In this document: one piece after another, positions 6,050 to 29,327 of the stretch
How the letters are laid out: every line of letters begins with the position of its first letter
How positions within the stretch are numbered: the stretch's first letter is position 1
NCBI GenBank assembly: GCA_014382905.1
Contig: JACNIU010000211.1
Span: 1-33,113, forward strand
Source of the DNA: Desulfobacterales bacterium
Lineage (GTDB): Bacteria; Desulfobacterota; DSM-4660; Desulfatiglandales; Desulfatiglandaceae
Direction of reading: 5' to 3'
Length of the DNA stretch: 33,113 bases
The notes under the pieces: model-generated
The model's input: the letters and a program-made list of their open reading frames with translations, nothing else
Databases searched by the model: none
What the model was told of the DNA's origin: nothing
Translations under genes and position numbers: made by a program

Positions 6050-6352
6050 TTACCCTGTTTGATTATCAATGAGTCTCTGGAGATTTGCCCTTCTTTCCTC
6101 GGGAAGATCGGGAGCCTTTCTGATGTTCATCGCCCTCATTACATCATATGTCCCATCCTCGAACAGGACCGGAATCTGAATGACGTAGTCGGGATTATGA
6201 CAGCACCCCGGCGCAAAATAATGACCCGGCCTCCTGCCCTCCTTCAGACTGTCTCTGGCCTTCGCGAAGATCTTTTCAGAAATTACCATTCCCGCCTGTC
6301 CTGTAAAGGTAGTTACGGTATCCCCCGACTCAAATAGCCTTTTTCTGTTCAT
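6050..6352 (-). CDS. Hypothetical protein (100 aa)
   Basis: Intact ORF with plausible composition, co-directional with the downstream-coordinate kinase gene. Confidence 0.65.
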   Translation of the reverse strand: MNRKRLFESGDTVTTFTGQAGMVISEKIFAKARDSLKEGRRPGHYFAPGCCHNPDYVIQIPVLFEDGTYDVMRAMNIRKAPDLPEERRANLQRLIDNQTG

Positions 6353-6390
6353 CGGTCACCTCAGTTCTTTACGCCAGCCGTTCAAAAATT

Positions 6391-7437: not shown

Positions 7438-8357
7438 AGGATTTTTCCGACAAGATCCTTCCGAACTTTTTTAGAGGACGTGACGATGCTGTCCACGACT
7501 CGGAGCCCCTTCCTGACGGTCACTCTTTCCCAGAGAACGGACCGGCGGATCTCCACGCCCTCTTCGAGATTTGTATCTTTACCGATGACGGCCCACTCTT
7601 TGAGTCTGGCAGACTCGTGGATCCGGCAACCCGGGCCAGACAAAAAGTGTGTTTCCTTCAACACCTCTTTATTGGCAAGAAGATAGCTGCCGATGGTTCC
7701 TACGTCCCGCCAGTAATGCCCGGTTGAAATATGGGCCCTGATCGGCCGGTCCTCTTTGATCAGCTCCAGGTAACAGTCTATGATATTGAAAAACCGTCTT
7801 TTGGGGATGCGGGAGAGGACCTCTGGTTCTATAATATGAATTCCGGTAAAGGCAAGCCTGCCGGGGCGGGCCTCGGACGCGATATCTAAAATGTCAAGAT
7901 GCTCATTTATCCGGATCTGGCTAAAGGGCGTATAGTCATGTAGAACAAGCGTGACCAGGTTTCCGGCCTTTTGATGTGCTTCCCAGGCCTTTCCCAGATC
8001 AATGTCGGTAAGGATATCTCCGTTAATGACGACAAAGGGCTCGTCATCCCAGAAGTCTTCGGTATTCCTGATGCCCCCGCCTGTTCCCAAAATCGTTGGT
8101 TCTATTTTGACCTGGATGTTCAGACCGAAAGGCCGGCCACCATCTAAATGGGCGACAAGTTGCTCTCTGTGATGATGGGCATTTACAATGACCTCACGTA
8201 TCTTGTATCTTTTAAGGTGCTCTATCACCCTGTCGATGATCGGCCTGTTCCCTATCGGCATGAGCGCCTTTGGCCTATCTAAAGTGAGGGGCCTCAGCCT
8301 TGTCCCGAGGCCGGCTGCGAGGATCATTGCTTTCATGGTATCTTTTTTCCGTTGCAA
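7434..8357 (-). CDS. NDP-sugar pyrophosphorylase / MurU-like nucleotidyltransferase with C-terminal beta-helix-like extension
   Basis: MKAMILAAGLGTRLRPLTLDRPKALMPIGNRPII signature; GTGGGIRN; VINGDILTDID. Likely start is the internal MKAMILAAG. Confidence 0.87.
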   Translation of the reverse strand: MQRKKDTMKAMILAAGLGTRLRPLTLDRPKALMPIGNRPIIDRVIEHLKRYKIREVIVNAHHHREQLVAHLDGGRPFGLNIQVKIEPTILGTGGGIRNTEDFWDDEPFVVINGDILTDIDLGKAWEAHQKAGNLVTLVLHDYTPFSQIRINEHLDILDIASEARPGRLAFTGIHIIEPEVLSRIPKRRFFNIIDCYLELIKEDRPIRAHISTGHYWRDVGTIGSYLLANKEVLKETHFLSGPGCRIHESARLKEWAVIGKDTNLEEGVEIRRSVLWERVTVRKGLRVVDSIVTSSKKVRKDLVGKIL

Positions 8358-8484
8358 TTATTTCTTACTGATTATACATCACTGAAAGCGATGTCAATAT
8401 GATATATTAAGACCTTATCATAAAGCCATATGGACAATCTGCTGTCGTTGTTAGACAAACACGATTTTTTAATTGTGAGATATC

Positions 8485-9558
8485 ATGCACTCCACCCTGA
8501 ATTTTTCAGAACTTGATGCCCAGATCGGCAGACTGTTCATGGCCGGGATTCCGGGCACACAATTGGATGAGGCCACTGAAGCGCTGATACGCGACCACTC
8601 CTTGGGTGGCGTCATCCTGTTTGCAAGGAACATAGAAGGCCCGGTTCAATTGGCCTCACTCTGCAGCAATTTGCAGGAGGTGGCGTTGAAGCACATCGGG
8701 ATCCCTCTATTTTTGGCGGTCGATCAGGAGGGGGGCAGGGTCGCCCGACTAAGAGAACCGTTTACGCGGTTTCCCGGAAACAGGGCCGTGGGAGAGGATC
8801 CGGAACCGGTGGAAAAGGCAGTGGAGTTCGGCACTATTACGGCAAGGGAGATGAGCCTGGTTGGTCTGAACATGAACATGGCTCCGGTTGTAGACGTCCG
8901 CAGGGGAGAGCCGGAAAGACACTTAGACGGAAGGATATTTAGCGATGACCCTGAAAAAGTTGCCCTTCTCGGGCGTAGTGTTGTGAAGAGCCTTCAGGAA
9001 AACGGTGTGCTGGCCGTGGCCAAACATTTCCCCGGCCTGGGCAGGGCCACACGCGATCCCCATCATGACCTTCCAACCATAGTTACGGATATAGGAGAGA
9101 TAGAGGCGGTCAATCTCCCGCCCTTCAAGGCGGCCATAGATCAAGGCGTCTCTGCTGTTATGACCTCCCATGCCATATACCCGGCATTGGATCCCGAATA
9201 TCCAGGCACCCTTTCACATAAAATCATCACCGGACTTCTAAGGGAAAAACTGGGCTTTGAAGGGCTGATTGTCACCGATGACCTGGAAATGGGGGCCATA
9301 AAAAAGGGGTGGGGAGTGGCCGGAGGCGCTGCTGCAGCGTTTGAAGCCGGGAGCGATCTCCTCTTGATATGCGAGGATCAAGAGAATGTCCTGGAGGGGA
9401 TGAAGACCTTGAGGGACCGTCTTCTCAGGGGAGAGATACCTTTGCAGAGGCTCCGTCAGTCGGTAAGAAGGATTATGGATGCAAAGGCCAGGTTCCTTGA
9501 AAAGGGGACGAAGATTTCCCTTGCAAGGGTCAAAAAGTATTTCAAGATAGACAGATAG
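8485..9558 (+). CDS. nagZ: Beta-N-acetylhexosaminidase, GH3 family (NagZ)
   Basis: DQEGGRVARLREPFTRFPGNRA, MNMAPVVDV, KHFPGLGRATRDPHHDLP, VMTSHAIYPALD, GLIVTDDLEMGAI. Confidence 0.93.
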   Translation: MHSTLNFSELDAQIGRLFMAGIPGTQLDEATEALIRDHSLGGVILFARNIEGPVQLASLCSNLQEVALKHIGIPLFLAVDQEGGRVARLREPFTRFPGNRAVGEDPEPVEKAVEFGTITAREMSLVGLNMNMAPVVDVRRGEPERHLDGRIFSDDPEKVALLGRSVVKSLQENGVLAVAKHFPGLGRATRDPHHDLPTIVTDIGEIEAVNLPPFKAAIDQGVSAVMTSHAIYPALDPEYPGTLSHKIITGLLREKLGFEGLIVTDDLEMGAIKKGWGVAGGAAAAFEAGSDLLLICEDQENVLEGMKTLRDRLLRGEIPLQRLRQSVRRIMDAKARFLEKGTKISLARVKKYFKIDR

Positions 9559-9593
9559 GGCCGGTTCTGAGCACCTCCGGACAGAGACTCCTT

Positions 9594-9768
9594 GAGACCT
9601 TTGCAAAACGCCCCCTATTGCCCAATCTCTACGCCTGCCCCGTAGCTCCGGAAGATGGTACTGGGGTCAGGCTCAAATTTTAATCCTCGAAATATTCAAT
9701 ATATTCCTGTGGTTAAAATTATCGCCTTCCTTGATCTTGACCAAAATTGAGCATTTTTCAAAGGTCTC
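9594..9768 (-). mobile_element. MITE-like element family A, copy 1 (175 bp)
   Basis: Terminal inverted repeats GAGACCTTTGCAAAA / TTTTTCAAAGGTCTC; flanked by perfect 5-bp direct repeat TCCTT (9589-9593 and 9769-9773). Inverted relative to copy 2. Confidence 0.85.
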
Positions 9769-9969
9769 TCCTTGTCAAAACGATGAAGTCGTACATAGGG
9801 AATCGTTTAATGAGGTCTCCATCACGCTGGCCAGGGTCTTGCGCATTTCCGGTGTATAAAGCGCATCGACTCTCCCTTGAAGGTGGTTTTCGGGCACATC
9901 AACTCATGACAATGCCATTTTCTTGTGTCCTCTAAAGAAAAGCCGTGAAATCAGGTTTTCTACGCCGAA

Positions 9970-10518
9970 TCAATCCACCAGCATGAGCGCGTAAAGGTTT
10001 TTCGGATCACCTTTTTCCTTTAATGTTTCGATAAAAAATCCGTTGTTTCGAACCGTCTGGTACACGTCAATTCCGACCGCCTCCATGGCCGGCCTGGCCC
10101 TGTCCCCGTGAAGGCAGGGCTCTCCCTTTCCCTTGGCACACTCTTTACAGAGGTGGCAGGGCCCTGCCAGGAAGAGCAGGGCCTTGTAATACCCATCCTT
10201 GAACATCTCCCCTTCCAGGTCGACAAGCATGTCGAAAAACTTCAGGACGCGGCGCCCGCCCTTTTCCTTGCTCCCCGGGATCGACTCGATGTGAAACAGG
10301 ATCGCCCTCTGGTAGCAGTCGATGGCGGCCTGCGTCTGCTCCGGGGTGGGGGTGTCCGGCGGGCAGCCGTACCGTTTCCCGTATCCGCCACAGCCGTATT
10401 GGCATTTCAGCCTGACCCAGGGGGCCGTCACCACTGTGCCGGGATAAATCGGTTGCGCGTGTGTGGCATAGCTTTCCAAGGCTTTGTCGCAGTATTTGTT
10501 CAAATCCGAGAGCTGCAT
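9970..10518 (-). CDS. DUF2284-type cysteine-rich metal-binding protein
   Basis: VRLKCQYGCGGYGKRYGCPPDTPTPEQT... and GPCHLCKECAKGKGEPCLHGDRARPAMEAVGIDV. Confidence 0.85.
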   Translation of the reverse strand: MQLSDLNKYCDKALESYATHAQPIYPGTVVTAPWVRLKCQYGCGGYGKRYGCPPDTPTPEQTQAAIDCYQRAILFHIESIPGSKEKGGRRVLKFFDMLVDLEGEMFKDGYYKALLFLAGPCHLCKECAKGKGEPCLHGDRARPAMEAVGIDVYQTVRNNGFFIETLKEKGDPKNLYALMLVD

Positions 10519-10538
10519 GTTCCCTCCCTAATAAGTCA

Positions 10539-11189
10539 TTAGATCGTGATTATCGCCCAACCCCCTTTCAGGAGATTACGCGTGCTCGGCGTTTCCCGTT
10601 TCTGCATCAGACACCTCCAGGCTCTGGGTGGATTTGGACGATGCGATCCAAAATGGCTTGACTGAAGTGAAAGAATCTCAAAATAAGGCTCTACTGTCAA
10701 GACTATATCTAATGCAGTCCGTTGTGGTGGGCCAGGACCTTGGCGATCCTCATCAGCATTGCCAACGATTGTTAGCCACAGGCCGGCTTCTTCCAAATGA
10801 GTAGCGACATTTTGTGCAAACCTTCTTCGATCATCTTCAGAACTGAATGAGTGAAAACAGCCTCTGTCAAATACAAAACCAAAAGGAGTTCCTTCTATTT
10901 TGTTCTTAAGAAAGTCAACATGTATAAAATCGCATTCAACGGTGGCTTTAGAAGCTTTTTCTTTTGCCTTCTCTATAGCAATGTCCGAAATATCAGTACC
11001 AATAACCTGAAAGCGGTTCTGAGCAAGCCATATGGAATTGTCTCCGGTTCCACAGCCAACATCTAAGACTTTGCAACTCAGAATAGGATTTTTGGTCACG
11101 ACTTCGATAAGATTGAAATCCGGCTGACCGGCGTCCCAGGGAGTGTCCCCTGATTTGTATCGTTCTCTGTAACGCTTTTCGATGGTCAT
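10539..11189 (-). CDS. Class I SAM-dependent methyltransferase
   Basis: PWDAGQPDFNLIEVV...VLDVGCGTGDNSIWLAQNRFQVIGTDISDIAI (motif I GxGxG-type). Confidence 0.88.
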   Translation of the reverse strand: MTIEKRYRERYKSGDTPWDAGQPDFNLIEVVTKNPILSCKVLDVGCGTGDNSIWLAQNRFQVIGTDISDIAIEKAKEKASKATVECDFIHVDFLKNKIEGTPFGFVFDRGCFHSFSSEDDRRRFAQNVATHLEEAGLWLTIVGNADEDRQGPGPPQRTALDIVLTVEPYFEILSLQSSHFGSHRPNPPRAWRCLMQKRETPSTRNLLKGGWAIITI

Positions 11190-12061
11190 CTGATTACACC
11201 TTATAGAAATGTTGTATTAAGCGATTGTACGGATCCGGATATCATGAGCTTCGTAACGTTATCCGTGCCAAAATGCTGGGCGTAGATGAAAAACAAATAT
11301 GAGCCGGTTGAGATATATTGAGAATACCACATGGGTTTCAGTTCTCCAAATAGTTGGAGACGTACAAGTCCTGAGAAGCATCATTCTGCTATTGTATCCA
11401 TGACGTATCTCAACCCTCGGTCCGCCCGTCTGAAAGGTGATATCACAGCTCTTCCGAGACTTGGCCTTATTCAGGCATCTGCAATCATTGTATATCCGAA
11501 TTTGGTTCGTACCCAAAATACTTTTAGTGATATTTTGATTGAAGCTTAATATAGGAAACCTTCACTTTGGATTAACAATCTGAAAAGGGCACGACCACAA
11601 GATGTAGTGGTTCTCCCATTCTGGGTTCATGGGGTCAATGGCCTACAATTTCTCTGAATATCCTATCCCTTTTTCATTTTAAACCGGGTCTGAGATACGT
11701 TGGAGTTATCACAGTTTAACAAAAAGCTCACCTGCCGGAAAATAGAGATGAACTTTTTATCCTTTTGGAACTTTATCTTTCCTATTGTTTCTGCGACTTC
11801 AGTGCCATTGATTTCCCGGTTAGGTGTAGCGACTTAGTTATAAACATCTTTTTGTTTTTTTTAACACTACAAGTTTATCTAAATGACTTCTGCTTTTTTA
11901 AAATATTATTGTATTTTTTGTAATATGTAGAAAACAATTATGACTATGGAATAAAGCGTAACGGGTAACTGTTATTAATATGGAATTTCCTACAAGTGCA
12001 ATTATTTTATGAAATTACTATTGCCTCAGGTCGAAAATTTTATTTACAAAGGACAACCAAA

Positions 12062-13381
12062 TCAATTTGAAGATGAAAGTCTTCCATATTCTTCGCCCAT
12101 TAAAAGATGTTCATAATCGCCATTCTTCTTAGATACGGTTAGTTGGAATTCCACCTTGCTCTGAAACAGCAAAATAATATCTGAACCTCCAAATAGAAAA
12201 TATCCAAGTAGATCTCCTTTTTTGACAACTTTACCCGGTTTGATATTTTCTTCAAAATTAATCGAAGATACCTGTGACATACCGACTGGTAATACACCGA
12301 CAAGGCCGTATTTATCGGTGTCGATGATCACAAGTCCGCGAGTCTGAATATTTTGCCAACCTGGACTGGCCGCGTCAAAGATATATTTGCCGCTTTTCGA
12401 ATCCCAGTTTACAAGGCCTCCCACTGCATCGTCTTCCTCAATGATACAAACATCTTTGACTGTTCCGCTAACAGGAAAATGATAGCGGTGATAATCGTTA
12501 ACATCAAGAAACATATGTGTAAAGGTTCCATTAGCAAAGGCATTTTTGTAGAGACATTTATTGCCAAGAAGTTCTGGAATGGACTTTAAACGAATCGACT
12601 TGACAACCACTCCGTCCTTATTAACGATATTGGAATTGCTATCTATCTTCCAAATCCCTTGAGATCTTGAATCTGCTGGAGCCGTAACGATAGCCGGATC
12701 ATTGGGGAAAACAATCGGTCTCTGGTCAGGAGACTTTAGATGTCTGGAAAAGAAGTCATTGAAGCTTTTCCAATTCGATGGTTTCTCATACCAACCTTTC
12801 TGTAAGCCGAAAGAATCATCGGCAAGCACTCGTTTGTAATATTCCTCATTCCAGGAATCTTTTTGGCTCAAATAGATACCCCAGTTCCTTGTAAAAAGAA
12901 TAAGCCACGAGCGATAGGGTTCATGATATTGCAGTGAATTTCGATAATATCCTTTGTCTTTCAATTCGGAAAGAGGTTGGTCATTAATGAAGTAAAAATA
13001 TGTCAGTCCCTGATAAGTCTGTTCATACAGGCTTGAGTAAGGAGTGTTCTTTAAAATCGTCCAAGGCATCGCTTTTGCTGCCCAATCCAGGAATTCATAA
13101 TACTCCCCAAGGGTTTGTGCCGGATTGGTTATTTTGTCTGGATTGCTTTTTTTAGCCATTTCAATTGAACGAAGAAGCATTTTTTTTAATTCCGGGCTGT
13201 GCTCCACGAAGATAATTAACTGTTCTGTAATTGGTTCGTGCTTTCCAGCTGAAGGCAGATTCTTTTCTATCTTATGCTGATTTATTTGATAATTCGACTG
13301 ACAGGAAGATAACAGTAAAATCGCTGTTAAACCAATAAAAAGCTGGGATACTATCTTTGTTTTAAATGCACAGGAGAGCAT
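12062..13381 (-). CDS. Phosphatidylserine-decarboxylase-family protein (PsiD-like architecture) with lipoprotein signal peptide
   Basis: Lipobox LLLSSC; FLDVNDYHRYHFPVSG (PSD D/H motif); GYFLFGGSDI (G-S self-cleavage motif); N-terminal PSD-associated domain-like region. Confidence 0.85.
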   Translation of the reverse strand: MLSCAFKTKIVSQLFIGLTAILLLSSCQSNYQINQHKIEKNLPSAGKHEPITEQLIIFVEHSPELKKMLLRSIEMAKKSNPDKITNPAQTLGEYYEFLDWAAKAMPWTILKNTPYSSLYEQTYQGLTYFYFINDQPLSELKDKGYYRNSLQYHEPYRSWLILFTRNWGIYLSQKDSWNEEYYKRVLADDSFGLQKGWYEKPSNWKSFNDFFSRHLKSPDQRPIVFPNDPAIVTAPADSRSQGIWKIDSNSNIVNKDGVVVKSIRLKSIPELLGNKCLYKNAFANGTFTHMFLDVNDYHRYHFPVSGTVKDVCIIEEDDAVGGLVNWDSKSGKYIFDAASPGWQNIQTRGLVIIDTDKYGLVGVLPVGMSQVSSINFEENIKPGKVVKKGDLLGYFLFGGSDIILLFQSKVEFQLTVSKKNGDYEHLLMGEEYGRLSSSN

Positions 13382-15735: not shown

Positions 15736-16236
15736 ATGGAAAGGAGAAGAACGATGAAAAAACAAAAAGTTGTGGGAATAATGCTTGTGATGTTCATGGT
15801 CCTGGCAGCGGGTACGGCGACCCTGGCTCATATGTATGGCATGGGTCCGGGCCCGGGCCCTCTGCGCGCCCTGATGGAGCTCGATTTATCCGACGCGCAA
15901 AAGGCACAGATCGCTGCGATAATGGCGGCATCCAAAGCGGAGAGGAAGACCGCAAAGCAGAAACATAAAGAGGTGAGAGACATACTGGCGCCTGTGTTGA
16001 AAGCCGAGGCGTTCAATGAAGAGAGTGTCCGGGCGGCCTTCCGACAGGCATCTGCTCTGATGGAAGACATCATGGTCATAAGAGTTAGAATTGGAAACCA
16101 GATCCGGGCGGTCTTGACGGACGAGCAGCGGCAGCTCATGGAGGAGCAGCGGGAAAAGGGCATAGCGGGCATGAAAAAGCATGCAGGATTTCGCGAAACG
16201 TTGCTGAATACCTGGCTCCAGACGACATCAGAGTAA
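15736..16236 (+). CDS. Spy/CpxP-like periplasmic protein
   Basis: Signal peptide; ALMELDLSDAQKAQIAAIMAASKAERKTAKQ...LTDEQRQLMEEQREKG. Start probably MKKQKV at 15754. Confidence 0.8.
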   Translation: MERRRTMKKQKVVGIMLVMFMVLAAGTATLAHMYGMGPGPGPLRALMELDLSDAQKAQIAAIMAASKAERKTAKQKHKEVRDILAPVLKAEAFNEESVRAAFRQASALMEDIMVIRVRIGNQIRAVLTDEQRQLMEEQREKGIAGMKKHAGFRETLLNTWLQTTSE

Positions 16237-16642: not shown

Positions 16643-17248
16643 ATGCAGGGCATGTTGGACGCACCCAGAGATTCAGAAATCGTACGCCGTATCCTTCAGG
16701 GAGATGTGAATGCCTTTGGGCTCCTGTTGGATCGGTACAAAGACCATGCCCTCAAGATTATCAAGAAACGCGTTCCCGCTTCGGAAGTGGAGGACATCGC
16801 TCAGGAGGCGTTTGTAAAGGCCTACCAGTCGCTGCCCGGGTTTGATCCTGAGAGTCATTTTAGAAAATGGCTCTCCACTATTACCGTCAGGACGTGCCAT
16901 GATTACTGGAGAAAGGCCTATCGCACACGGGAATTGCCCATGAGCGCCCTTTCTGAAAGGCATCGGGAATGGCTGGAGTGCGTGATCTCATCAGAATCAA
17001 ACGCTTCAGCGGACGGCAGGGCCCGGCAGGAGGAGGCAAAAGAGGTTCTGGCCTGGGCCTTGGATCGGTTATCACCGGAAGATCGCATGGTGGTGGAGAT
17101 GGTTTACTTGGAAGGGATGACAGGAAGAGAGGCCGCTGAGCTGCTGGGATGGAGCACGGCAAACGTGAAGGTGCGCGCTTTCCGGTCGCGCAGAAGGCTG
17201 CGAAAGCTGCTTACCGGACTCCTGGAAAGAGAGGAGGGGAGATTATGA
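16643..17248 (+). CDS. RNA polymerase sigma factor, ECF (sigma-70) family
   Basis: Region 2 DIAQEAFVKAYQSLPGFDPESHFRKWLSTITVRTCHDYWRK; region 4 LSPEDRMVVEMVYLEGMTGREAAELLGWSTANVKVRAFRSRRRLRKLL. Confidence 0.93.
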   Translation: MQGMLDAPRDSEIVRRILQGDVNAFGLLLDRYKDHALKIIKKRVPASEVEDIAQEAFVKAYQSLPGFDPESHFRKWLSTITVRTCHDYWRKAYRTRELPMSALSERHREWLECVISSESNASADGRARQEEAKEVLAWALDRLSPEDRMVVEMVYLEGMTGREAAELLGWSTANVKVRAFRSRRRLRKLLTGLLEREEGRL

Positions 17249-17574
17249 ACCTCAAAAGGGAGGACCTCAAGAAAGTCCAACGGGCAGTTTCGTCCGCCTA
17301 CAAAGAGGGGGAGAAGATTGAGATTGGAGATGTCTGGGAGGATCGCCTCATGGTTCGTATCCGGGGTCTGGGACCGCTGACATCCCGGCTTAGTTTCACA
17401 GCCCTCTTTGAACGCTATGCCTGGCGCTTCGCCCCGGTGGCTGCCCTGATACTCCTGATCCTCGGCGGTGTCCTCTACCAGCAGATGGACTTCCTGTCCG
17501 AGTGTGAGATGGCAAGGGTATTTGTGGAAAACCGGTTCGATGATTCACTATTTCAGGTTTTAGGTGCATCATGA
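17245..17574 (+). CDS. Single-TM protein, putative anti-sigma factor (CnrY-like position and topology)
   Basis: ATGA overlap with the sigma gene; about 60-aa N-terminal region, TM PVAALILLILGGVLY, short periplasmic tail. Annotated from internal ATG (MNLKRED). Confidence 0.7.
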   Translation: MNLKREDLKKVQRAVSSAYKEGEKIEIGDVWEDRLMVRIRGLGPLTSRLSFTALFERYAWRFAPVAALILLILGGVLYQQMDFLSECEMARVFVENRFDDSLFQVLGAS

Positions 17575-18014
17575 AAGGGAACAGATCAAAATTGAAATTT
17601 GCCGCGAGCGTGGGCCTTGTCTTTTTTGTCGGCGTGTTAGTTGGCGCATTAGGTGGCAATATCTATTTCAAGGCCCGAATCGAGAAGATCTTTCATGGCG
17701 GGCCGCCCAGAGGGGAGAGGATCCTTGAACGGCTCACGGAAGACCTCGATCTGACACCGACCCAGTTGGAGGAGATCCGGCCCATTGTCATGGCGTTTGA
17801 CAAAAAGACCTTTGATTTAAAGCGGCAATTCCTCCCGCAGATGAGGCACCTTCACGAGCAGATCACGGACCAGATCAAAACAAAGCTGGATGAAAAACAG
17901 AAAAGAAAGTTCGATAAAATCAATGAAAGATTGAAAAAGCGCTTTCGAGGGAGGCCGCCATTCCCTCCGCCCATTGAAGGCCCCCCGGAAAGGCCCCGCG
18001 GGATTAAAGACTGA
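17571..18014 (+). CDS. Membrane-anchored Spy/CpxP/CnrX-like periplasmic sensor protein
   Basis: N-terminal TM FAASVGLVFFVGVLVGALGG; LTEDLDLTPTQLEEIRPIVMAF...LDEKQKRKFDKI; overlaps preceding gene (ATGA). Confidence 0.75.
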   Translation: MKGNRSKLKFAASVGLVFFVGVLVGALGGNIYFKARIEKIFHGGPPRGERILERLTEDLDLTPTQLEEIRPIVMAFDKKTFDLKRQFLPQMRHLHEQITDQIKTKLDEKQKRKFDKINERLKKRFRGRPPFPPPIEGPPERPRGIKD

Positions 18015-18443: not shown

Positions 18444-19409
18444 TTAATCCACAACATGCTTTCTATATTCGCGGTAGCGTTCCGGAAGTCGGGCAAGCTT
18501 CTTGGCGTCGGGATAACGCGACAGTTGTGTCCGGCATTTCTGAATCCGTTCTTTAAGCGGCGGATGCGTAGAAAACCACGACCCCTTTTTTGTGGATCCG
18601 GCCTCGATCTTTACCAGCGCCTTCAGCACTTCCATGAGACCTTCAGGATCGTACCCGGTCCTGTAGGCGGTCTCCATAGCACTAACATCCGCTTCAAATT
18701 CCATGTTCTGATCCAGGCCTTTGTCGAAAAGGGTGTTCTGAAGACCTCCGATCATATCCTCAAACTCTTTACCTTTTTCCCCTTTCATGTTGGCAGAGGT
18801 GATCTTTCCTACACCCTGAAAAAAACGTGCCCTCTGTATGGATTGCAGGGCATGCTTGTGTCCCACATGGGCCACTTCGTGGGCGAGAATCCCTGCCAGC
18901 TGGCCTTCGCTCTGGATGGTCCTCAGAAGACCGGAACTGACGAAAATAATGCCGCCCGGGCAGCTAAAGGCGTTTTGAAGCGGGCTTTCAATGACGACAA
19001 AGTTATAGGGGATCCCGGGACGAAGGGAATTTCGCGCTACTGCGTTCCCCACCAGGTTGACATATTCTTGCACTTTCCTGTCTTTCACCGGCATGCCGTA
19101 CCGCCGAAACCCCTCCAGGGCCAGGCTTTCCCCAATGGTCCTTTCGGATGGATAATCGATTTCCGTGGCAGATCCCAGGATGGACCCGACCCCCTGCAGG
19201 ATCTTGCTCTCCTTTGACTTGGGATCCATCAACTTGTCGAGCAGGCCCGCGAGTTGCACATGCGGTCTGTCATCGACCTTTGCACGCGAAGTCGCCTCTG
19301 CAGACAGAACGGTTTCAGAAAAACATAAAACCAGCCCAAGGCTATATGCAAGGCTGCACACCATCCAGAACCCATGTAAACCTCTTCTCATGGCTCCTCC
19401 CCCATTCAA
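18444..19409 (-). CDS. M48-family metalloprotease (periplasmic, BepA/LoiP-like)
   Basis: Signal sequence; HEVAHVGHKHA (HExxH); NMEFEADVSAMETAYRTGYDPEG; STHPPLKERI. Confidence 0.92.
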   Translation of the reverse strand: MNGGGAMRRGLHGFWMVCSLAYSLGLVLCFSETVLSAEATSRAKVDDRPHVQLAGLLDKLMDPKSKESKILQGVGSILGSATEIDYPSERTIGESLALEGFRRYGMPVKDRKVQEYVNLVGNAVARNSLRPGIPYNFVVIESPLQNAFSCPGGIIFVSSGLLRTIQSEGQLAGILAHEVAHVGHKHALQSIQRARFFQGVGKITSANMKGEKGKEFEDMIGGLQNTLFDKGLDQNMEFEADVSAMETAYRTGYDPEGLMEVLKALVKIEAGSTKKGSWFSTHPPLKERIQKCRTQLSRYPDAKKLARLPERYREYRKHVVD

Positions 19410-19450: not shown

Positions 19451-19975
19451 TTATGGCGCATATTCTCCGATCTTGCCCGCCCTTAGAAATACCCCTAACT
19501 GTTCGTCTGTCACCCTGATTGCCAGCACCTGATCCAGGGCTTGCTTATAGGCCTCGGGTGTTTTCTTATTTTTGGTGTACTGTTCGGTTTCTTTGGAAAG
19601 CCCTCGTATGCTTCGGGATGTCTGGGCCTCGTCCGCGCTGATATTGCTCCCCCCAAGCCCCGAAAGAAGGTTCCCGGTGTCCCCGGTTTCCTTCTCTGGA
19701 GCCGTATCTGAAAGTTTGCCCCGGTAGATCCACCCCTCGCCCCCGGAAGCCGTTCGAACCCGGTACCAGCGGCTTTCCGATTCCAAAACGGTCACCCTGG
19801 TACCCATGGGGACCGCTGCAAGGGTCTCGGACGATGCCGAGTGATCCGCCTTGAGTTTGGCCCCTTCGGATGCGACCCACAGGGCGTCAGCGGCGTGGGC
19901 GGCAAAACCGAAAAGGCTGAGAAAGGCTGCCAACACCATGACAAGAATTTTTCTTTTCATCTTCTTCCACCTCAT
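19451..19975 (-). CDS. SH3-domain protein with signal peptide
   Basis: LWVASEGAKLKADHSASSETLAAVPMGTRVTVLESESRWYRVRTASGGEGWIYRGKLS: bacterial SH3b pattern. Confidence 0.85.
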   Translation of the reverse strand: MRWKKMKRKILVMVLAAFLSLFGFAAHAADALWVASEGAKLKADHSASSETLAAVPMGTRVTVLESESRWYRVRTASGGEGWIYRGKLSDTAPEKETGDTGNLLSGLGGSNISADEAQTSRSIRGLSKETEQYTKNKKTPEAYKQALDQVLAIRVTDEQLGVFLRAGKIGEYAP

Positions 19976-20208: not shown

Positions 20209-23200
20209 TTATTGATAGTCTCCCACCAGCACGAAAGCCCCCCAGTAGCCAGGATGGGGGTAGCGGGTCTTGACGTGGAGCATGGCGCGTCTAAGACTAT
20301 CGGCCAATGGTTTGGCCTTGTATTCTCTGTAAAACTGTTTCACCAAAATGGCTGTGGAGATATCGCTCACCCGCCAGAGGCTCGATATGATGGCGTGGGT
20401 GCCTGCATAGAGAAAGGCCCTGTTCATTCCGATCACATCGTCCCCGCCGGTGATCTTTCCAAGTCCGGTCTGGCACGCACTCAACACCACTAATCCGGCC
20501 TTGATGTCCAGGCCAAACACCTCGGACGCCTGCAGATCGCCGTCGTCCGTGTCGTCCCTGGCCAGCTTCACGGCGGAAAAAAGCGGGTTGATGGGATCGA
20601 ATTCGCCATGAGAGGCAAGATGGATGATGCCGAATTTCGAGATATTTCGCACGACCCACCCTTCGGTGGCCTTTTCTCCGGTCAACACGGTGGTTTCCGG
20701 AAAGTTCCATCCGATGGATGAGACCTCTTTTTCTGCAAAAGGGAGGTCCAGACCAGGGTTCTTCAGATCGGGATTGCCAACGGCCAGGACCCTGAGGTTT
20801 TTCTCTTTCTGCCGTCTTTGATGCGTATAACGGAGAACGCTGGCACTGGGGAGAGAAAAGAGGGAAAAGGAATCCACAAGGTGGTCTTTCCCATTAAAGA
20901 GGGTGGCAAAAGATAGGTGGTGAAGCGTATCATGGGGAATGATCCCAAGCACCTTGACACCTTCCAACCTGGCACCTGAACGGGAGACAAGCCATTCGTA
21001 CAGTTGCCTGGACTGGGATTCCTGGGGCTCCAGGTTCTGGAGTGCTCTACGGTAGTCCAGAATGGTTTCCCGAAGGGTTTTACGGCCCAGCGGCGTGCGA
21101 AAGAGATCCACGTTTTCTCGGGTGATGAGCCAGCAGAGGATTTGGTCAGGGACCACGTAATAGGCCAGCATGGCCACCCCGGGTTCAAGAAGTTCCTGGA
21201 CTTGAGGGAGGGTCAGGGGGTTGACCGACAGGATGGAGCCCAGTTCGGGGTTCTTCATCTGGATCTCCAGCATGAGATCGCGGTATTCGTCGTTTGCCCG
21301 TTTTACCTCCCGCTCATAGACAGCACGTTCTTCCTTCTCACGGGCCTGAGCAAGGAGGATCTCCCCCTCAGAGATCCTTGCCCTCAGGGTTTTCTCCTTG
21401 TCATAAAGCTCCTGATTCACCACACCGTACAGGCTGAGGCGCTGGTTTCCCAGTAGATCAATCAGATTCCTGGCCCTGGAACGTTCCGCCACATAAAAGG
21501 CTTCCGACGTCTTTCCCATGTCCACCAGGAGGCTCACCAGGGCCTCATAGACGTCCATCTTGTTTGAGATGAATCCATCCCTGAGCTGGTCCAGCTTGAT
21601 GTCGGCCCTCATGGATTCAATGACCTCCACGGCCTGGGAGAGAAGTTCCCCGGCCTTTTCCCGATCTCCTTGCTTCAGTCTCAATTGAGCGAGCCCGTAG
21701 AGAGACCGCCACTCGGTTTCACGAAGGGCCATGGCGCGGGAGAGATCAAGGGCCTGTTTGAAAACGTCATTGGCTTCGGGAAACCGGCCCAGTGCGGCCA
21801 GGGCCTCGCCGTATCCGGCCAGGATCTTGGCCTGGTTGATCCTGTTGCCGATCTGGGCGGCCGTGGTCAGTGCTTCCTGAAAGAGCGGCAGGGCTTGTTC
21901 TGCCTTGCCCATGTGCAGGTAGGTCAGGGCCTGATTTTTCAGGTCGTAGGCAATGGCCCACCGGGAGTTGATCTCCCTGTCGATACGCAACGCTTCATCA
22001 AGGGCCTTCAGGGCCTTTTCATATTGGCCCATGTCGCGGTAGACCAGCCCCATGTTGTTCAAGGTGGTGGCCCTTTCGTCTTTGCGGGCCTTCAGGGTTT
22101 TTGCCTGGTCCAGCGCCTCCTCCAACTGGCGCAAGGCCCGAGGGTGGTCCCCCAGAGTCCACCAGATGAGGCCGGATGTGTTCAGGGCATTGACCTGTTC
22201 AAGGGCCCACTGGTTTTCCCGGGCCTTTTGGTAGACGTCTCTCTGGTGTTTGAAGGCATCCTGATATCGGGCCTGAAACCAGTCATTATTGGCCTGCTCC
22301 ATGGTAATATTTGCCCTGAGCCGCTGGTTTTTTTCACCCATTCCCGAAAGGGCCAAGGCCTTCTTATACTGCTCGCCGGCTTCCTTGAAATTCCCGAGGA
22401 GGCGGTTGCATCGTCCTGTATCCAAAAGGGCCTGGGCCATGTTTTCTTTTTCTGCGAGCGTTTCATAAAGTTTATAGGCCTCCATGTAATGCTGCTTGGC
22501 CTTGGCATATTGGCTCAACCGAAGATCGTAAATGCGCCCCATGCGCATATGCTGGTGAGCCAGGAGTTCCTGTTTGTTCAGGGTTTTGCTGAGGGCGGCT
22601 GCTGACTGGAATTGGGCCAGGGCACGGTCATAATCGGTTGCGTTTTCCAGCACCACGCCCAGATCGTTCAGGGCTTCCACCTGCCGGGCGCCCAATTCCA
22701 GACTGGCCATGATCTCGGCCCCTTCTTCCAGGGCGGCTATGGCCCGATCGTATCTTTCCATGCGGGCCTGAACCAGGCCCAGACTGATCAGGGCTTCGGC
22801 ATATTCCTTCGAATCCGGCTTTTTCTTGGCGAGCCGTTCCACTAAGGCCCTGGCATGATGTTGGGCCTCTTCATAGCGGCCAGCGGCATAGGCGCTTTCC
22901 CGGGCATACTGCTCGAGCTGCGGCAGGTAGCGCTCGAACTCCTGGACCTGGTCCGCCACCGTCAGGGCCTTTTGAAAGAAGATGAGGGCATGGAGAGGTT
23001 CCTGGTTCTTATAGGCTTTTGCCCCTTCTGTCACGTAACTCTTGAACCGCTTCTTGGCCAGGGACAAGGCTTCATCCGTGGTCATGCCCCGGGCACCAAA
23101 TCCGATCCATTCTTCTCTGCCTCCCTGTTGCGAGCCTGCCGTAAGAAGGGCTTCGTGGGAAGGGGAGGCCGCATAGGCTCGAAAAAAGGGTTCCACAAAG

Positions 23201-26200
23201 GTGGAACGGGTCAGGGGCTGGCGCGGAAGCATCAGGGTGGGAACCCCCATCAGGGAAAAGAGGTGGGCCAGAGGGTAGGCGTCCTCTACGGAGGCCCCGG
23301 GCAAAAGTGCCAGGGACGCGTCGGATACCTCATCAAACAGGCTGGTCAGCGGCACGCTTCGTCCCTGATCCAGACCCATGGCCGGGTACTGGAAAGGCAC
23401 CTGGCCGGGTCTGGTGGGCACGGAGCTTGCCATGTAGACCGGCCCTCCCAGCAGAAGACCCTGAATCCCCGGCAAGGCCTCTAAGAGATCCGCCTGATGG
23501 ATGGAGGAAGGGAGCGATACCACTTCAAAGGCCGAGGGAAGCGAGTATTCGGCGGATACCGCAAGGGTCTTTTTTTTGAAGGGCTTTTGGTTTCGTATGG
23601 ATCGTACCAGGTGCGTGGCGCTCAGGGCCAGTGGCGGGGTAACAGGGAAAGGCAGAGACGATGGATCTTCAAAGATAAGTATGGCCGGGCCATGTTTCAT
23701 TATCGGCAAAGGGGCCTCTTTCTCAAGGCTCCGAACGGTAATTTCCTCTGGGGTCACCATAAAGGCCTGCCATGCCTGCCCCGGGTCTCTGCTCCTGAAG
23801 AGCCGGATAGCGGTGCTTCCCCCGGGAAGGCTTTCCATCAGGTCAATGGCCTCCACCGGGTCAGGGGCGAAAATCGCAGAAATGCCCGGGTTGTCCTCTT
23901 TAGCCGCCCGGGCCCTCATTTTCTTCCACATGCTCCGGTACGACCTTAGCAGTTCACTGTATTGTTGTTTCAAGGCATCGGCTTCGGCCCCAGCGCCCGT
24001 CTCCACGGCTTTATCGCCCAACTGCCGGGCCTTCAGAGCCAATCCCAACATCATCAGCACCTGATGCTGACCGGCTTTGGATTTGGTCAGGCGGGCAGAC
24101 ACAGGGATCTGCGCACCATCGTCTCCCATGGCAGATTGTAAGAGATGCAGCTCCTGATCGATTCGTCGAAGAAGGTGAGGTCTTTCCGTCTTGTCCGCGG
24201 ACTTCAGGTCGCCTCTTAGTTGCTCTAATATCAGAAGCCTGGGAAGGACCCGAAGCAGCCACTGTTGTTCAGGCGGCGAAAGCCCTCCAAGAGCCAACGG
24301 AGTCAACCGTTGAAAACGCTCCATTTCCGATATCCGCTCGAGGAGGTTGAATGCGTCCTCTGTCTTGCCTTTAGCAATCAAATCAGACACCAGGGGGGCA
24401 AAGGCATCCAGAATTTCATTAGCTCCGCATCCAGCCTCCAGAAGGGGAACCGACTCCAGAACGGGAAGGGCATCCTTCAGATTGCCCAGACCTGTCAGGG
24501 CACGCCACTCGTACTGCGGGAGCAACCCTTTTCTTGAGATTTCAAGGGCCTTTTCCAAATGGGACTTCGCTGTTTCCGGCTCTTTGAGACGACCGGCCAC
24601 CGAGGCCATGTTGAGGTGAAGGGCCGCTTCAAGGCCCAGGGCCTTTCTTCCTTTTGGGCCTTTATGTTTTTGGAGTGATTTGAGACCCGAGAAAAAATGG
24701 GCCCCGGCCGCTTCCACTCCGTCCATCTCTTGAACTGCCGCTTCCAAATAACCCTGTCCCTGCTCCGGTTTGTTTTTCAGGATGAGCACGCCCATTGTAT
24801 TGTGATAGGAAGGGACCAGTAGAGGGTCCAGAACGTCCGAGAACCTCTCCAGCAGGCGCGTGGCCTCCCGGTCCAGGGCCAGCAGGTGTGCCCGATCTTT
24901 TCCGAAATCAGGGTCACGGGCCGGGATCCGGGACAGGGTCCAGGCCATGTTCTCCACGTTCAATGCGGCACTCACCGGATTTTTGAGACGTAAGGAGAGC
25001 CGGGCAGACCGCAGAAAGCCCTGAAATGCCTTTTTCAGGTCCCTTCGGGCGTACTTCAGATGGCCGTCCCGGTGGGAGAGAAGGGCCACCCCGTAAAGGT
25101 CCTCATCCGGGATGGTCCTGCCTGACGGGTATGGGCCTATTTGCCGTTCAATGGCCTTTTGGGCCTTTTCCAGGTCCCCTAACTCGGTCTCGATGCGGGA
25201 GATAAACGCCTGGGCCAACCGCTTTTCCTGTTCCGGGGAGAAGCCGTACATGGCCTGGGATGAAGCCGTTTTATCCAGAGACAGATCCAGAGAAACGTCT
25301 AAAATTGCCTGGGCCGGTCTGTCCGATGGGCCCTTACTTGCTTTCGATGTGGCCACGCCATATCGGTCTACCAGGGGCCCCACCGCCTGAAACCCCTTTG
25401 TCGCTGTTTCGAGCATCTTTGTCCGGGCCGCCCCGGACAGGACGCCGGCCTCCATGTAGGCATTGTATGCCGTTGAGCGCCGGTTGGCCGCCAGGTTTTG
25501 AAACCGCCCCAGTTTCTGGTTCAGTTGAAAGGCCCGCTCAAATGCAGCCCCGGCCTGGGTCCACTGACCGGCCTCCTGATAGGCCAGCCCCAGCCGGTCA
25601 AGCATCTCCGCCTTCAACTGGACCATCTCTTCGGGGAACTTGAGCGCCTCTCTGGCCCTGGTAAGCATGAACCCCAGGGTTTGATCGGTTTCTTCCTTCT
25701 TTTCAACCACCAATGGACCGATTTCTCCAAGGACCTTTTCCTGGTCGGCTATGATCGATTCCATGGCCGTTTTGTAGACGGCCCATTGGGGATCGGGCGG
25801 GGGGCCGAAGGTCCGGCCGGTGGAATCAAAAAGCCTTCGATTGATGCCGCTCTGGCGCTGGACCAGGGCCTCCGCCTTTTTGGCTGCATCGGGTCGCTTC
25901 AGGGCCGGTGTCAGAATCCGGTCAAAAATGGTTGTGTTGATTTTCCCCAGGATCTCTGAGGCACGTTTCTGATCGATCCGCTTTTCGATGAGCGCGAGGG
26001 CCCTGGAATAGGCCTCGACAGGCCGGTCGGGGTCCCGAACCTGGAAGGCGGCGGCGCCCAGACGGCGGAAAAAAAGGATCTCCGTATCTTCGTGATCAAA
26101 TGGTGTGTTCGATTCAAGACGTTCCAAATAGCTCTCAAGGGCCTTTGAATACTGGCCAAGCAGGAACGAGATGTTTCCGAGGTTGAGGGCCAGGTCGGCG

Positions 26201-28758
26201 GTGTTTTCTGGGTCCAACTCCGCGTTGTTCAGAAAATAGGCCTTCTGATAGCATTCAAGGGCCTTTTCCAGATACCCGGGTTGGTGATACACCGTCTCCA
26301 TCACTTCAAAGATGTACCCCAGGGTCTGGTGAAAATAGGCCACCTGCCCCTGCCGTTGAATGGCCTTTTGAATAAGGGAACGGGCCTCATTGAGGGGATC
26401 CTTCCCCTCCAGGTATGTTAAGCAGAGCCCTGTGGTGTAGAGGTTTACAGGATCATTCGGGGCCTTTTCCAACTGTTTTCGGTAGAGGGTCAGGGTGGGC
26501 TCCATCTGCTTCCTGGCAGCCGCGCAGCGGATATACCCGCGGTGGGCCTGTACTCGGGTGCGGTCCTCGCGGATCAGGTCTGCATAGAGGTTCTGTGCCG
26601 CGGGCACCTCGCCCAGGTGGTACAGGAAATCCGCGGCAGCAAGGGATTTCTGAATGTATGCGGCGCGAGTGAGGCGGTACAGATGGTCTTCATAGGGCTG
26701 CATGGCCATTCCGGCTTCATAAAGATCCAGGGCCTCCCGGAACAGCTCTTCCCGGTAGAGGATCTCTGCCAGGGCCAGCCGTGCTGCCGCGGCCTGTGTG
26801 GAAATCTCTCCGGCAGTCTGGCCGGCGGCCTGGGAATATTGATTCACCACCTGCCGGTACCAGGACTTGGCCTGTTTCCACTCCCCTGCTTCATAAGAGA
26901 TGTCGCCCATGCGGTTGAGGGCGCCCATGGCCAATTTGGGAACCGCGTTCTTGTAGGTCTGGGCCAGCCGGGCCAGCGCCTGGATCTTGTCTTCCCCAGT
27001 TTCCCTGTTCGGCTCCGACAGGGTCTTGTCGATGATCTGTTCCACGGAACGATCGGCCCATTCCGTATTGGGAAAGCCCTTGATGATTTTCAGGTAGGCC
27101 GGGACCACCTCGCCGGCCCTGCCGATCCGGCTGTTCAACCGGGCCTTGACGAACATGGCCTCTGCCAGTAATGACGCGGGGATTCCGGGTGTTTCCGCCA
27201 CTCTGTCCAGCAACTGGATGGCCTTGAGGAGGGATTGGGGATCTCGGCCCAGGTCTGTTAGCAACCGGGCCTGTTCCATGAGACTGCGGGCCCTGATGAT
27301 CGTCAGGCCGGCATAATCCACGTCTGTGCCGGGGAGGATGTCGGCCTTTGCCAGCGTTGCGATGCGGGTGAGGGCCTCATCTAAGATATCTCTGCGCTTG
27401 AGGTCCGTGGGGGCTTCCTTCCACCGGGTCCTGGTGAGTATCCCTTCGAGGCGGATGCGGGCAAGGGAGGCCTCGGGAAAAGTGTTTTCAAAGGTTTGCA
27501 CTACCTGTGCATAGGCCTGGCCCGCCTGCTCCGTCCGGCCCATCCGTTCGTACAAACGCCCGATCCGGTACGCTGCTTTTCCCCCGTAAGACCCTTCCCC
27601 GGAAAAACCCTCCAGGACCTTATAAAAGGCCAGGATGGTCAGGCTGTCGTCTCTTGGAACGTGAGAGTTCAGTGTCTCTGCCAGATCCATCTGTTTCCTG
27701 GCATCCTGCATCGGAGGGATCTGCCCTCCAGGGGGCAGGGACCACAGGTTGCTGGTGCGTTTCAGAGTGGAAAGAAATGAGAGCCCTGCAGGGGTGATAA
27801 TGGGCTGGTAGGCGGAGAAGGTCTCCGAGGTGAGGGGGTAAATGAGAGGGCCTGGACCGGCGGCAGGGACGCGGCAGATCACGGCGTTGTCATCTAATGT
27901 GACCTTTCCGTCCCGGTTTGTGTCTACCCCAAACCGTGAAAAATAAAGGGTGTGACCGTCCCCGGACCAGCAGGGATAGAGATCCCGGGCAGGTCCCCGG
28001 GTAACAGGATCCACGCGCCCGGTTTTCAGATCCATCACGAAGATATCTCCCCCGGGATCAGCTCGCACAGAGACAAAGGCACACCTCTGGCCGTCCGGGG
28101 AGATCGCCGGAAAAGCCGCGTCACCACCGGTTTCAAGGGGCCGTGGACGGGGGAGGTCCTGGCGCAGATCGAGGGTCGCCAGTTGCCGCAGGGTTTCGCC
28201 GGGACGGGACCGATGAAAATAGAGGATGTTACCGTCAGGAGAAAAACAGGGGGCGCCGTCTTCGGTCTCTCTCCCGGTAAGCCGCTTGGGAGACGCCTTT
28301 TCTGCATCCGGCGTCATAAAATAGATATCCCCTTTGGCATCATAGCCTGTGGCCACAAAGGCGATCCGGCGGCCATCGCGAGAAAGGGCAGGGGCTGAAA
28401 TTTTGCCCGGCCCTTCAACCACTTTTTTGGGGAGATCCATCCTGGATGGGTCCAGGGCCCTGAGCCACAAAGAAGAAGGCCCGCGGCTTTCCATGGTGTA
28501 AACCAGCCTGCCGCCGTCACCGGATATGGCCGCATAAATTACCGGATCTGCTTCAAAGGTGATCTGAACCGGCCTGTTCACTGGCAGAGGCCTTGGGGGC
28601 CGTTTGTTCCCCTTCCTGGAGAAAAGCCCGGAATCGGGGGCCTTAGCAGGGGGCGTGTCTTCTAACAAAGGCCTGGTGAACCCGGGCATGGCACAGGCAA
28701 GGAGAGCAAAGGTTAGCATGAAAAGGAGGATCTGGGTTTTTACGGTTTTACCGTCCAC
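20209..28758 (-). CDS. Giant lipoprotein: TolB-like beta-propeller, TPR array, degenerate CHAT-like domain, TPR array, C-terminal CHAT protease
   Basis: Lipobox FALLAC; propeller PALSRDGRRIAFVATG / CFSPDGNILYFHR / AISPDGQRCAFVS; many TPRs; C-terminal IIHLASHGEF (His codon about 20608) and LVVLSACQTGLGK (Cys codon about 20473), ending YWGAFVLVGDYQ. Confidence 0.93.
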   Translation of the reverse strand: MDGKTVKTQILLFMLTFALLACAMPGFTRPLLEDTPPAKAPDSGLFSRKGNKRPPRPLPVNRPVQITFEADPVIYAAISGDGGRLVYTMESRGPSSLWLRALDPSRMDLPKKVVEGPGKISAPALSRDGRRIAFVATGYDAKGDIYFMTPDAEKASPKRLTGRETEDGAPCFSPDGNILYFHRSRPGETLRQLATLDLRQDLPRPRPLETGGDAAFPAISPDGQRCAFVSVRADPGGDIFVMDLKTGRVDPVTRGPARDLYPCWSGDGHTLYFSRFGVDTNRDGKVTLDDNAVICRVPAAGPGPLIYPLTSETFSAYQPIITPAGLSFLSTLKRTSNLWSLPPGGQIPPMQDARKQMDLAETLNSHVPRDDSLTILAFYKVLEGFSGEGSYGGKAAYRIGRLYERMGRTEQAGQAYAQVVQTFENTFPEASLARIRLEGILTRTRWKEAPTDLKRRDILDEALTRIATLAKADILPGTDVDYAGLTIIRARSLMEQARLLTDLGRDPQSLLKAIQLLDRVAETPGIPASLLAEAMFVKARLNSRIGRAGEVVPAYLKIIKGFPNTEWADRSVEQIIDKTLSEPNRETGEDKIQALARLAQTYKNAVPKLAMGALNRMGDISYEAGEWKQAKSWYRQVVNQYSQAAGQTAGEISTQAAAARLALAEILYREELFREALDLYEAGMAMQPYEDHLYRLTRAAYIQKSLAAADFLYHLGEVPAAQNLYADLIREDRTRVQAHRGYIRCAAARKQMEPTLTLYRKQLEKAPNDPVNLYTTGLCLTYLEGKDPLNEARSLIQKAIQRQGQVAYFHQTLGYIFEVMETVYHQPGYLEKALECYQKAYFLNNAELDPENTADLALNLGNISFLLGQYSKALESYLERLESNTPFDHEDTEILFFRRLGAAAFQVRDPDRPVEAYSRALALIEKRIDQKRASEILGKINTTIFDRILTPALKRPDAAKKAEALVQRQSGINRRLFDSTGRTFGPPPDPQWAVYKTAMESIIADQEKVLGEIGPLVVEKKEETDQTLGFMLTRAREALKFPEEMVQLKAEMLDRLGLAYQEAGQWTQAGAAFERAFQLNQKLGRFQNLAANRRSTAYNAYMEAGVLSGAARTKMLETATKGFQAVGPLVDRYGVATSKASKGPSDRPAQAILDVSLDLSLDKTASSQAMYGFSPEQEKRLAQAFISRIETELGDLEKAQKAIERQIGPYPSGRTIPDEDLYGVALLSHRDGHLKYARRDLKKAFQGFLRSARLSLRLKNPVSAALNVENMAWTLSRIPARDPDFGKDRAHLLALDREATRLLERFSDVLDPLLVPSYHNTMGVLILKNKPEQGQGYLEAAVQEMDGVEAAGAHFFSGLKSLQKHKGPKGRKALGLEAALHLNMASVAGRLKEPETAKSHLEKALEISRKGLLPQYEWRALTGLGNLKDALPVLESVPLLEAGCGANEILDAFAPLVSDLIAKGKTEDAFNLLERISEMERFQRLTPLALGGLSPPEQQWLLRVLPRLLILEQLRGDLKSADKTERPHLLRRIDQELHLLQSAMGDDGAQIPVSARLTKSKAGQHQVLMMLGLALKARQLGDKAVETGAGAEADALKQQYSELLRSYRSMWKKMRARAAKEDNPGISAIFAPDPVEAIDLMESLPGGSTAIRLFRSRDPGQAWQAFMVTPEEITVRSLEKEAPLPIMKHGPAILIFEDPSSLPFPVTPPLALSATHLVRSIRNQKPFKKKTLAVSAEYSLPSAFEVVSLPSSIHQADLLEALPGIQGLLLGGPVYMASSVPTRPGQVPFQYPAMGLDQGRSVPLTSLFDEVSDASLALLPGASVEDAYPLAHLFSLMGVPTLMLPRQPLTRSTFVEPFFRAYAASPSHEALLTAGSQQGGREEWIGFGARGMTTDEALSLAKKRFKSYVTEGAKAYKNQEPLHALIFFQKALTVADQVQEFERYLPQLEQYARESAYAAGRYEEAQHHARALVERLAKKKPDSKEYAEALISLGLVQARMERYDRAIAALEEGAEIMASLELGARQVEALNDLGVVLENATDYDRALAQFQSAAALSKTLNKQELLAHQHMRMGRIYDLRLSQYAKAKQHYMEAYKLYETLAEKENMAQALLDTGRCNRLLGNFKEAGEQYKKALALSGMGEKNQRLRANITMEQANNDWFQARYQDAFKHQRDVYQKARENQWALEQVNALNTSGLIWWTLGDHPRALRQLEEALDQAKTLKARKDERATTLNNMGLVYRDMGQYEKALKALDEALRIDREINSRWAIAYDLKNQALTYLHMGKAEQALPLFQEALTTAAQIGNRINQAKILAGYGEALAALGRFPEANDVFKQALDLSRAMALRETEWRSLYGLAQLRLKQGDREKAGELLSQAVEVIESMRADIKLDQLRDGFISNKMDVYEALVSLLVDMGKTSEAFYVAERSRARNLIDLLGNQRLSLYGVVNQELYDKEKTLRARISEGEILLAQAREKEERAVYEREVKRANDEYRDLMLEIQMKNPELGSILSVNPLTLPQVQELLEPGVAMLAYYVVPDQILCWLITRENVDLFRTPLGRKTLRETILDYRRALQNLEPQESQSRQLYEWLVSRSGARLEGVKVLGIIPHDTLHHLSFATLFNGKDHLVDSFSLFSLPSASVLRYTHQRRQKEKNLRVLAVGNPDLKNPGLDLPFAEKEVSSIGWNFPETTVLTGEKATEGWVVRNISKFGIIHLASHGEFDPINPLFSAVKLARDDTDDGDLQASEVFGLDIKAGLVVLSACQTGLGKITGGDDVIGMNRAFLYAGTHAIISSLWRVSDISTAILVKQFYREYKAKPLADSLRRAMLHVKTRYPHPGYWGAFVLVGDYQ

Positions 28759-29327
28759 GATCCGTCCTCCTTTTGGACCTTTTCGCCGGGCAGGGCGTTT
28801 TCCCTGTTGAGCCTGGCAAGCACCCGGTGAATCTCAGGAAGGTCTTTTTCGGTGAGATCGGCGTTTGTCTCCACTACCCGCATCATGACGACCTTCCTGG
28901 CCCCGTTGACCTGCTGCACCACCGAGTCAAATTCCCCCTGTTGATACCGGGCGGCAAAGGGCTGGAGATCGTCCGGGACTTTTTCCTTATTCATGGGAAA
29001 AGGGGTAAGGAACCCCTTGTTGTTCTCACCAGCCCAACCCAGGCGTTTAAAGGCATCCACGTCATCCTGGTGAAAGGCAAGGGTCTCGATGGCATCAACG
29101 GCATTCTGGTATTCACGGCTTTTTCTGGGAGGTGTCTTGATCTTCCCGGAAGGGTCCACGCCCCTCACCGAAGCCACTAACAGCACGTCCTGGGAAAGGG
29201 CATTGTATGAGCCAAGGACCTGATTTTCGAGGGCGGTACGCTCGCTCACCACATTGACTTCAACCTTGGCGAGGGTACATCCGGCCATGACCATCAGGAT
29301 GAGCGTCAGGAAGCAGACTTTTTTCAT
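28740..29327 (-). CDS. DUF1318/YdbL-like lipoprotein
   Basis: Lipobox VMAGC; C-terminal VNGARKVVMMRVVETNADLTEKDLPEIHRVLARLNRENALPGEKVQKEDGSWTVKP resembles the YdbL C-terminus; overlaps both neighbours. Confidence 0.75.
   Translation of the reverse strand: MKKVCFLTLILMVMAGCTLAKVEVNVVSERTALENQVLGSYNALSQDVLLVASVRGVDPSGKIKTPPRKSREYQNAVDAIETLAFHQDDVDAFKRLGWAGENNKGFLTPFPMNKEKVPDDLQPFAARYQQGEFDSVVQQVNGARKVVMMRVVETNADLTEKDLPEIHRVLARLNRENALPGEKVQKEDGSWTVKP

Follow-up and report, generated by a model that had tools for sequence, protein, structure and literature searches.

The window, i.e. the whole stretch of 33,113 nucleotides that was analysed, carries on its reverse strand an 8.5-kb open reading frame that encodes a giant protein. 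From the amino terminal to the C-terminal end, this protein consists of a signal peptide, a beta-propeller, a TPR array, a helical stretch, a degenerate CHAT domain, a second TPR array and a C-terminal CHAT domain (Table 1). It is the sole CHAT protein found in the source genome. The amino terminal sequence is MDGKTVKTQILLFMLTFALLAC, with the lipobox LLAC at residues 19-22, and beyond this signal no hydrophobic segment above threshold is present in the whole of the 2849 residues. An earlier note, made from the sequence alone, had described a reading frame with a lipobox signal, a TolB/PD40 propeller, two TPR arrays and a C-terminal CHAT domain. All of these are present, and the construct is kept at full length in orthologs. 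The note did not mention the degenerate middle CHAT or the conserved partner genes. Upstream of the giant gene are the genes termed P3 and P2, and downstream are genes for an SH3_3 protein and an M48 metallopeptidase. P2 as listed starts with TTG, and a later ATG is also possible.

Table 1. Positions of the giant gene, its predicted domains and motifs, and its partner genes in the window
Feature	Position	Strand	Remarks
Giant tandem-CHAT ORF, predicted exported	20209..28758	(-)	2849 aa; GTG start; uninterrupted
Signal peptide with lipobox L19-L20-A21-C22	28693..28758	(-)	Ala at +2; from sequence, pattern search
TolB/PD40-type beta-propeller, ~residues 63-345	27724..28572	(-)	PD40 74 bits (Pfam); TolB matches in PDB
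TPR array 1, ~residues 380-930	25969..27621	(-)	several Pfam TPR families; PDB matches to natural and designed TPRs
Degenerate CHAT (pseudo-protease), ~residues 1450-1890	23089..24411	(-)	hhalign, distant orthologs, model
Conserved VPTRPG motif, residues 1780-1785	23404..23421	(-)	near the place of the CHAT catalytic His; Pro1781 in 48/49
TPR array 2, ~residues 1900-2390	21589..23061	(-)	Pfam TPR; model pLDDT ~90
C-terminal CHAT, residues 2583-2847	20218..21012	(-)	PF12770 191-196 bits; curated cut-off 24
Catalytic His2717 (predicted)	20608..20610	(-)	aligned with Csx29 H615; kept in 49/49
Catalytic Cys2762 (predicted)	20473..20475	(-)	aligned with Csx29 C658; kept in 48/48
P3, lipoprotein (lipobox MAGC) with C-terminal DUF1318 (YdbL-like)	28740..29327	(-)	195 aa; overlaps giant ORF start
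P2, putative AsmA/DUF748-type, N-terminal membrane segment	29324..33025	(-)	1233 aa as listed; overlaps P3
SH3_3 protein with signal peptide	19451..19975	(-)	follows the giant gene in some family members
M48 metallopeptidase with signal peptide	18444..19409	(-)	follows the giant gene in some family members

Several other genes in the window deserve mention. A phosphatidylserine decarboxylase-like protein (12062-13381, reverse strand; 141.5 bits) has the lipobox LLSSC at its start and is apparently an exported homolog of this enzyme. Two adjacent multihaem cytochrome c genes are found at 93-3154 (forward strand), a HicB-family protein (56 bits) at 3884-4210 (reverse strand) and an LTXXQ/metal-resistance protein at 15736-16236. 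An ECF sigma factor gene opens a stretch at 16643-18014 (forward strand); next come a gene whose product has a single hydrophobic segment (17149-17574) and a small membrane-anchored gene (17571-18014) that has no Pfam match. A link of the giant gene to the nearby sigma factor gene was considered and set aside, as its position next to the CHAT gene is not conserved in the family.

How widespread is the giant protein? A single-sequence search of genome contigs found no relatives; an alignment-based search did detect loci. Named genomes, when scanned, yielded 80 loci, mainly in Desulfobacterota, including Desulfobacteraceae, Geobacter, Geomonas, Citrifermentans, Desulfonema magnum and NaphS2. Remoter loci of the family are in KSB1, Planctomycetota, Sumerlaeia and Gammaproteobacteria. 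Full-length orthologs in other genomes of the same bacterial family share 51-63% identity over ~2840 amino acids, and 49 full-length sequences, among them those of NaphS2, Geomonas spp. and Desulfonema magnum, make up the ortholog alignment. The reading frame is therefore more than a chance construct. Within the order its distribution is patchy, with the protein in 12 of the 85 genomes (one of these, G012, counted from CHAT fragments).

Is the protein exported, and is it anchored? Export and lipobox assignments were made by pattern search. A hydrophobic signal-type segment opens nearly all of the 49 full-length orthologs, and the export part of the earlier prediction of an exported, membrane-anchored protein thus stands. 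The lipid anchor does not hold as a family trait: when the homologs were checked, 8 of the 49 showed a lipobox (L074 among them is doubtful), and the others look like signal-peptidase-I substrates. Two fragmentary relatives, G010 and G012, also have a lipobox. Among bacterial CHAT proteases, those studied best are part of intracellular antiviral systems. The earlier note set the protein against well-known CHAT systems that are cytoplasmic; this contrast was overstated, as DdvA is transmembrane and the same order holds other CHAT reading frames with a lipobox or signal peptide. Export of a CHAT protein thus has precedents. The giant protein is real and conserved, and its interest lies in its predicted envelope location together with its coupling to partners, not in export alone. 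Two further groups of CHAT proteins were seen. Six of ~740-820 amino acids carry an N-terminal lipobox, are mostly gammaproteobacterial and are without a P2/P3 neighbourhood (L105, L107, L109, L110, L113 and L115). In four others (L184, L185, L186 and L187) the amino terminal region resembles, by eye, a class III nucleotide cyclase, and the His motif was not found by pattern.

The C-terminal domain is apparently a live caspase-like protease. An HMM of this region places H2717 and C2762 on H615 and C658 of Csx29, where joint mutation of the two residues abolishes cleavage (PMC10028731). The E-value against the Csx29 PDB sequence is weak (0.067); the Pfam match is nevertheless decisive for the predicted CHAT assignment. 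Both residues are invariant in the orthologs, one of which ends before the Cys position and is left out of the Cys count. The intact His and Cys claimed earlier are thus borne out by alignment with the caspase-fold dyad, at the level of sequence.

The middle domain presents a different picture. In a profile comparison built on the 49 orthologs, hhalign aligned the middle region with the C-terminal CHAT at an E-value of 1.6e-9 over 358 collinear columns; reversed, shuffled and unrelated control regions gave p values of 0.018 to 0.9. The signal from the beta-part of the domain alone is modest (p 0.0012 vs 0.018 for the best control). With just 7-8 close orthologs, the profiles of the two CHAT regions did not match (probability 1.8%), and a Pfam search with the window's own middle region does not find CHAT. 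The middle region of the KSB1 ortholog is recognised as Pfam CHAT (65 bits), also without the dyad, and BLASTP aligns it with the live CHAT of the window at 1e-27; that of a Planctomycetota reading frame scores 38 bits. Structure prediction gives a strand and helix order that both CHAT regions largely share, although the first lacks some of the helices. At the Cys site a Cys is found in none of the 49 orthologs. A His occurs somewhere in the His region in 7/49 and an HG motif in 0/49, the exact register there being uncertain. The middle domain is, judging from these alignments, a CHAT homologue that has lost its catalytic residues. The invariant dyad of the C-terminal CHAT, set beside the loss of both residues from the first copy, is difficult to account for unless catalysis is under selection. 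A reading of the middle domain as the counterpart of the pseudo-protease part of separase was dropped, because the CHAT1 of Csx29 appears to sit within a single ordinary CHAT unit.

The main structure model covers residues 1648-2847 (1200 residues; mean pLDDT 85). Its best Foldseek matches are DdvA, separase and Csx29/Craspase, with low TM-scores that are attributed to the long superhelix. The first model of the middle domain is weak (pLDDT 69) and superposes poorly (TM ~0.2), although its top match is still a CHAT protein; DdvA is the best match for both models. Could the giant protein be an envelope sensor or scaffold, whose C-terminal CHAT binds instead of cutting, and which passes signals on as DdvA may do? 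The prominence of DdvA among the structural matches would agree with this, as would the presence of one CHAT copy that is already dead and a repeat scaffold that forms the bulk of the protein. However, the idea is unlikely in view of the contrast between the invariant His and Cys and their loss from the first copy, and the giant protein is without a further hydrophobic segment or an anti-sigma domain.

The neighbouring genes offer a hint of function. P3 of the window matches DUF1318 at 29.2 bits (cut-off 27), and other P3 proteins score up to 39.8. P2 matches DUF748 at 52.8 bits, just above the cut-off of 50, and other P2 proteins score below it; as this match is marginal, any role in lipid transport is carried over from what AsmA-type proteins do. 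For full-length orthologs whose flanking sequence is sufficient, P3 lies directly upstream of the giant gene in 36 of 43, usually with an overlap of a few bases, and P2 is upstream in 31/40. The SH3 and M48 genes are both downstream in 24 of 38, and a third of the loci are without them. Co-occurrence was scored across genomes as well. Of the 85 genomes of the order, 11 have the CHAT protein and P3, one has CHAT only, none has P3 only and 73 have neither. A sample of 345 Desulfobacterota genomes, in which CHAT was scored by the middle domain and P3 by a full-length match (12 genomes each), gave 11 with both, one with CHAT only, one with P3 only and 332 with neither. Fisher tests give 6e-13 and 8e-19 for order and phylum, respectively, values that are not corrected for shared ancestry. 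The exceptions are G144, with P3 and no CHAT protein, and G320, with the CHAT protein and no P3.

Does the association depend on linkage? In eight genomes P3 was not seen at the CHAT locus, and in all eight it is encoded elsewhere, which provides independent support for the coupling. For seven of these the available upstream flank exceeds 1 kb; the eighth (L102) offers just 190 bases and is not informative on linkage. In the complete genome of Desulfonema magnum the two genes are ~0.9 Mb apart. P2 adjoins the unlinked P3 in two of the three loci read, L199 being the exception. The giant protein is thus coupled to P3 and mostly to P2. At L194 a full-length P3 (8288-8848, forward strand) is present, but the search for the CHAT middle domain found none in that genome; the next downstream reading frame has 349 amino acids. 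At L095, from a Planctomycetota MAG (6170-11359), a single reading frame joins an N-terminal lipobox and ~25 P3-like residues to a degenerate CHAT, which TPRs and another CHAT accompany.

The partner set also bears on two other explanations. A surface-exposed or released protease with extracellular targets would account for the signal peptide and lipobox, and sequence cannot tell location beyond the inner membrane. It is nonetheless quite improbable, as most orthologs are without the lipobox, Pfam recognises no surface-export or C-terminal sorting domain in the protein, and the dedicated partner P3 is a small envelope lipoprotein. A suicide effector in the envelope, directed against phages or competitors, is less probable still: CHAT proteases do act in antiviral defence, as in the Craspase system (PMC10028731), and the spread within the order is patchy, but PADLOC returns generic TPR matches only, the partners are AsmA-like and DUF1318 proteins and not defence genes, the co-occurrence with P3 persists when the genes are unlinked, and phages give a single weak partial match and plasmids only matches of <60% identity.

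What, then, might the giant protein do? The domain order, the export signal, the dyad conservation, the dead first CHAT and the coupling to P3 and mostly to P2 are computed properties. From the partners P2 and P3 we infer that the protein serves an AsmA-type envelope apparatus. In E. coli, the ydbH-ynbE-ydbL locus affects the outer-membrane barrier and bears on outer-membrane lipid homeostasis (PMC8593681). The main reading, to which we give a probability of about 0.5, is that an exported, scaffold-type giant CHAT protease acts in the envelope with P2 and P3, and often with the SH3 and M48 proteins. P2 and P3 would make up, or adjust, a lipid path of the YdbH type that links the membranes. The giant protein would reside in the periplasm; in the lineage of the window a lipid would anchor it, most likely in the outer membrane. 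With its propeller and TPR superhelices it may read the state of the P2/P3 apparatus, and the first CHAT, having lost its dyad, would be a binding or regulatory module. The last CHAT would be held inactive until a trigger is received and may then cut a chosen envelope protein. A more specific version, rather doubtful at present, adds the caspase-type protease as a dedicated third member to an inter-membrane lipid-transport apparatus of AsmA/YdbL type; the protease would cleave an envelope protein when transport fails or is completed.

The findings suggest that many Desulfobacterota have a caspase-type protease operating in their cell envelope. The protein combines a CHAT domain whose dyad is intact with a dead copy, is predicted to be exported and is tied, across many genera and also where the genes are unlinked, to two envelope proteins of a type linked to lipid transport. 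This provides a putative envelope caspase with concrete partners in bacteria that can be cultured, e.g. Geomonas and Citrifermentans.

How does the giant protein compare with known systems? DdvA (PDB 8rot, 8rw5) is likewise a membrane-linked protein with a CHAT domain. It differs in having ~990 amino acids and in being described as a transmembrane anti-sigma factor, whereas the giant protein has a propeller, two TPR arrays, two CHAT domains and a cleavable-type signal, and shows no anti-sigma domain by Pfam and no transmembrane helix after the signal peptide. Csx29 (TPR-CHAT) of Craspase, from type III-E CRISPR systems, shares the combination of TPR and CHAT, the aligned His/Cys dyad and a pseudo-caspase part that accompanies an active one (PMC10028731). 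Unlike Csx29, the giant protein is predicted to be exported, and its dead CHAT is a whole extra domain, separated from the live one by a TPR array; the pseudo part of Csx29 is, by our reading of the alignment, CHAT1 within one CHAT unit. No Cas gene, such as Cas7-11/gRAMP, is found among the window proteins scanned. Separase (Peptidase C50), which is among the top structural matches, also joins a long helical-repeat superhelix to a caspase-fold protease, but the giant protein is bacterial, predicted to be exported, built on other repeats and not matched by Pfam Peptidase_C50. Other exported CHAT proteins of 800-1100 amino acids (L039, L040, L178, L105, L107) have a lipobox or signal peptide and a C-terminal CHAT; they are much shorter and, where searched, are without the P2/P3 neighbourhood. 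As in the E. coli YdbH-YnbE-YdbL system, a putative AsmA-type protein (P2) adjoins a DUF1318 (YdbL-type) protein. The window locus has no separate YnbE gene, with P2, P3 and the giant reading frame overlapping, and it departs from the E. coli arrangement in that P3 is itself a lipoprotein and a CHAT protein has been added.
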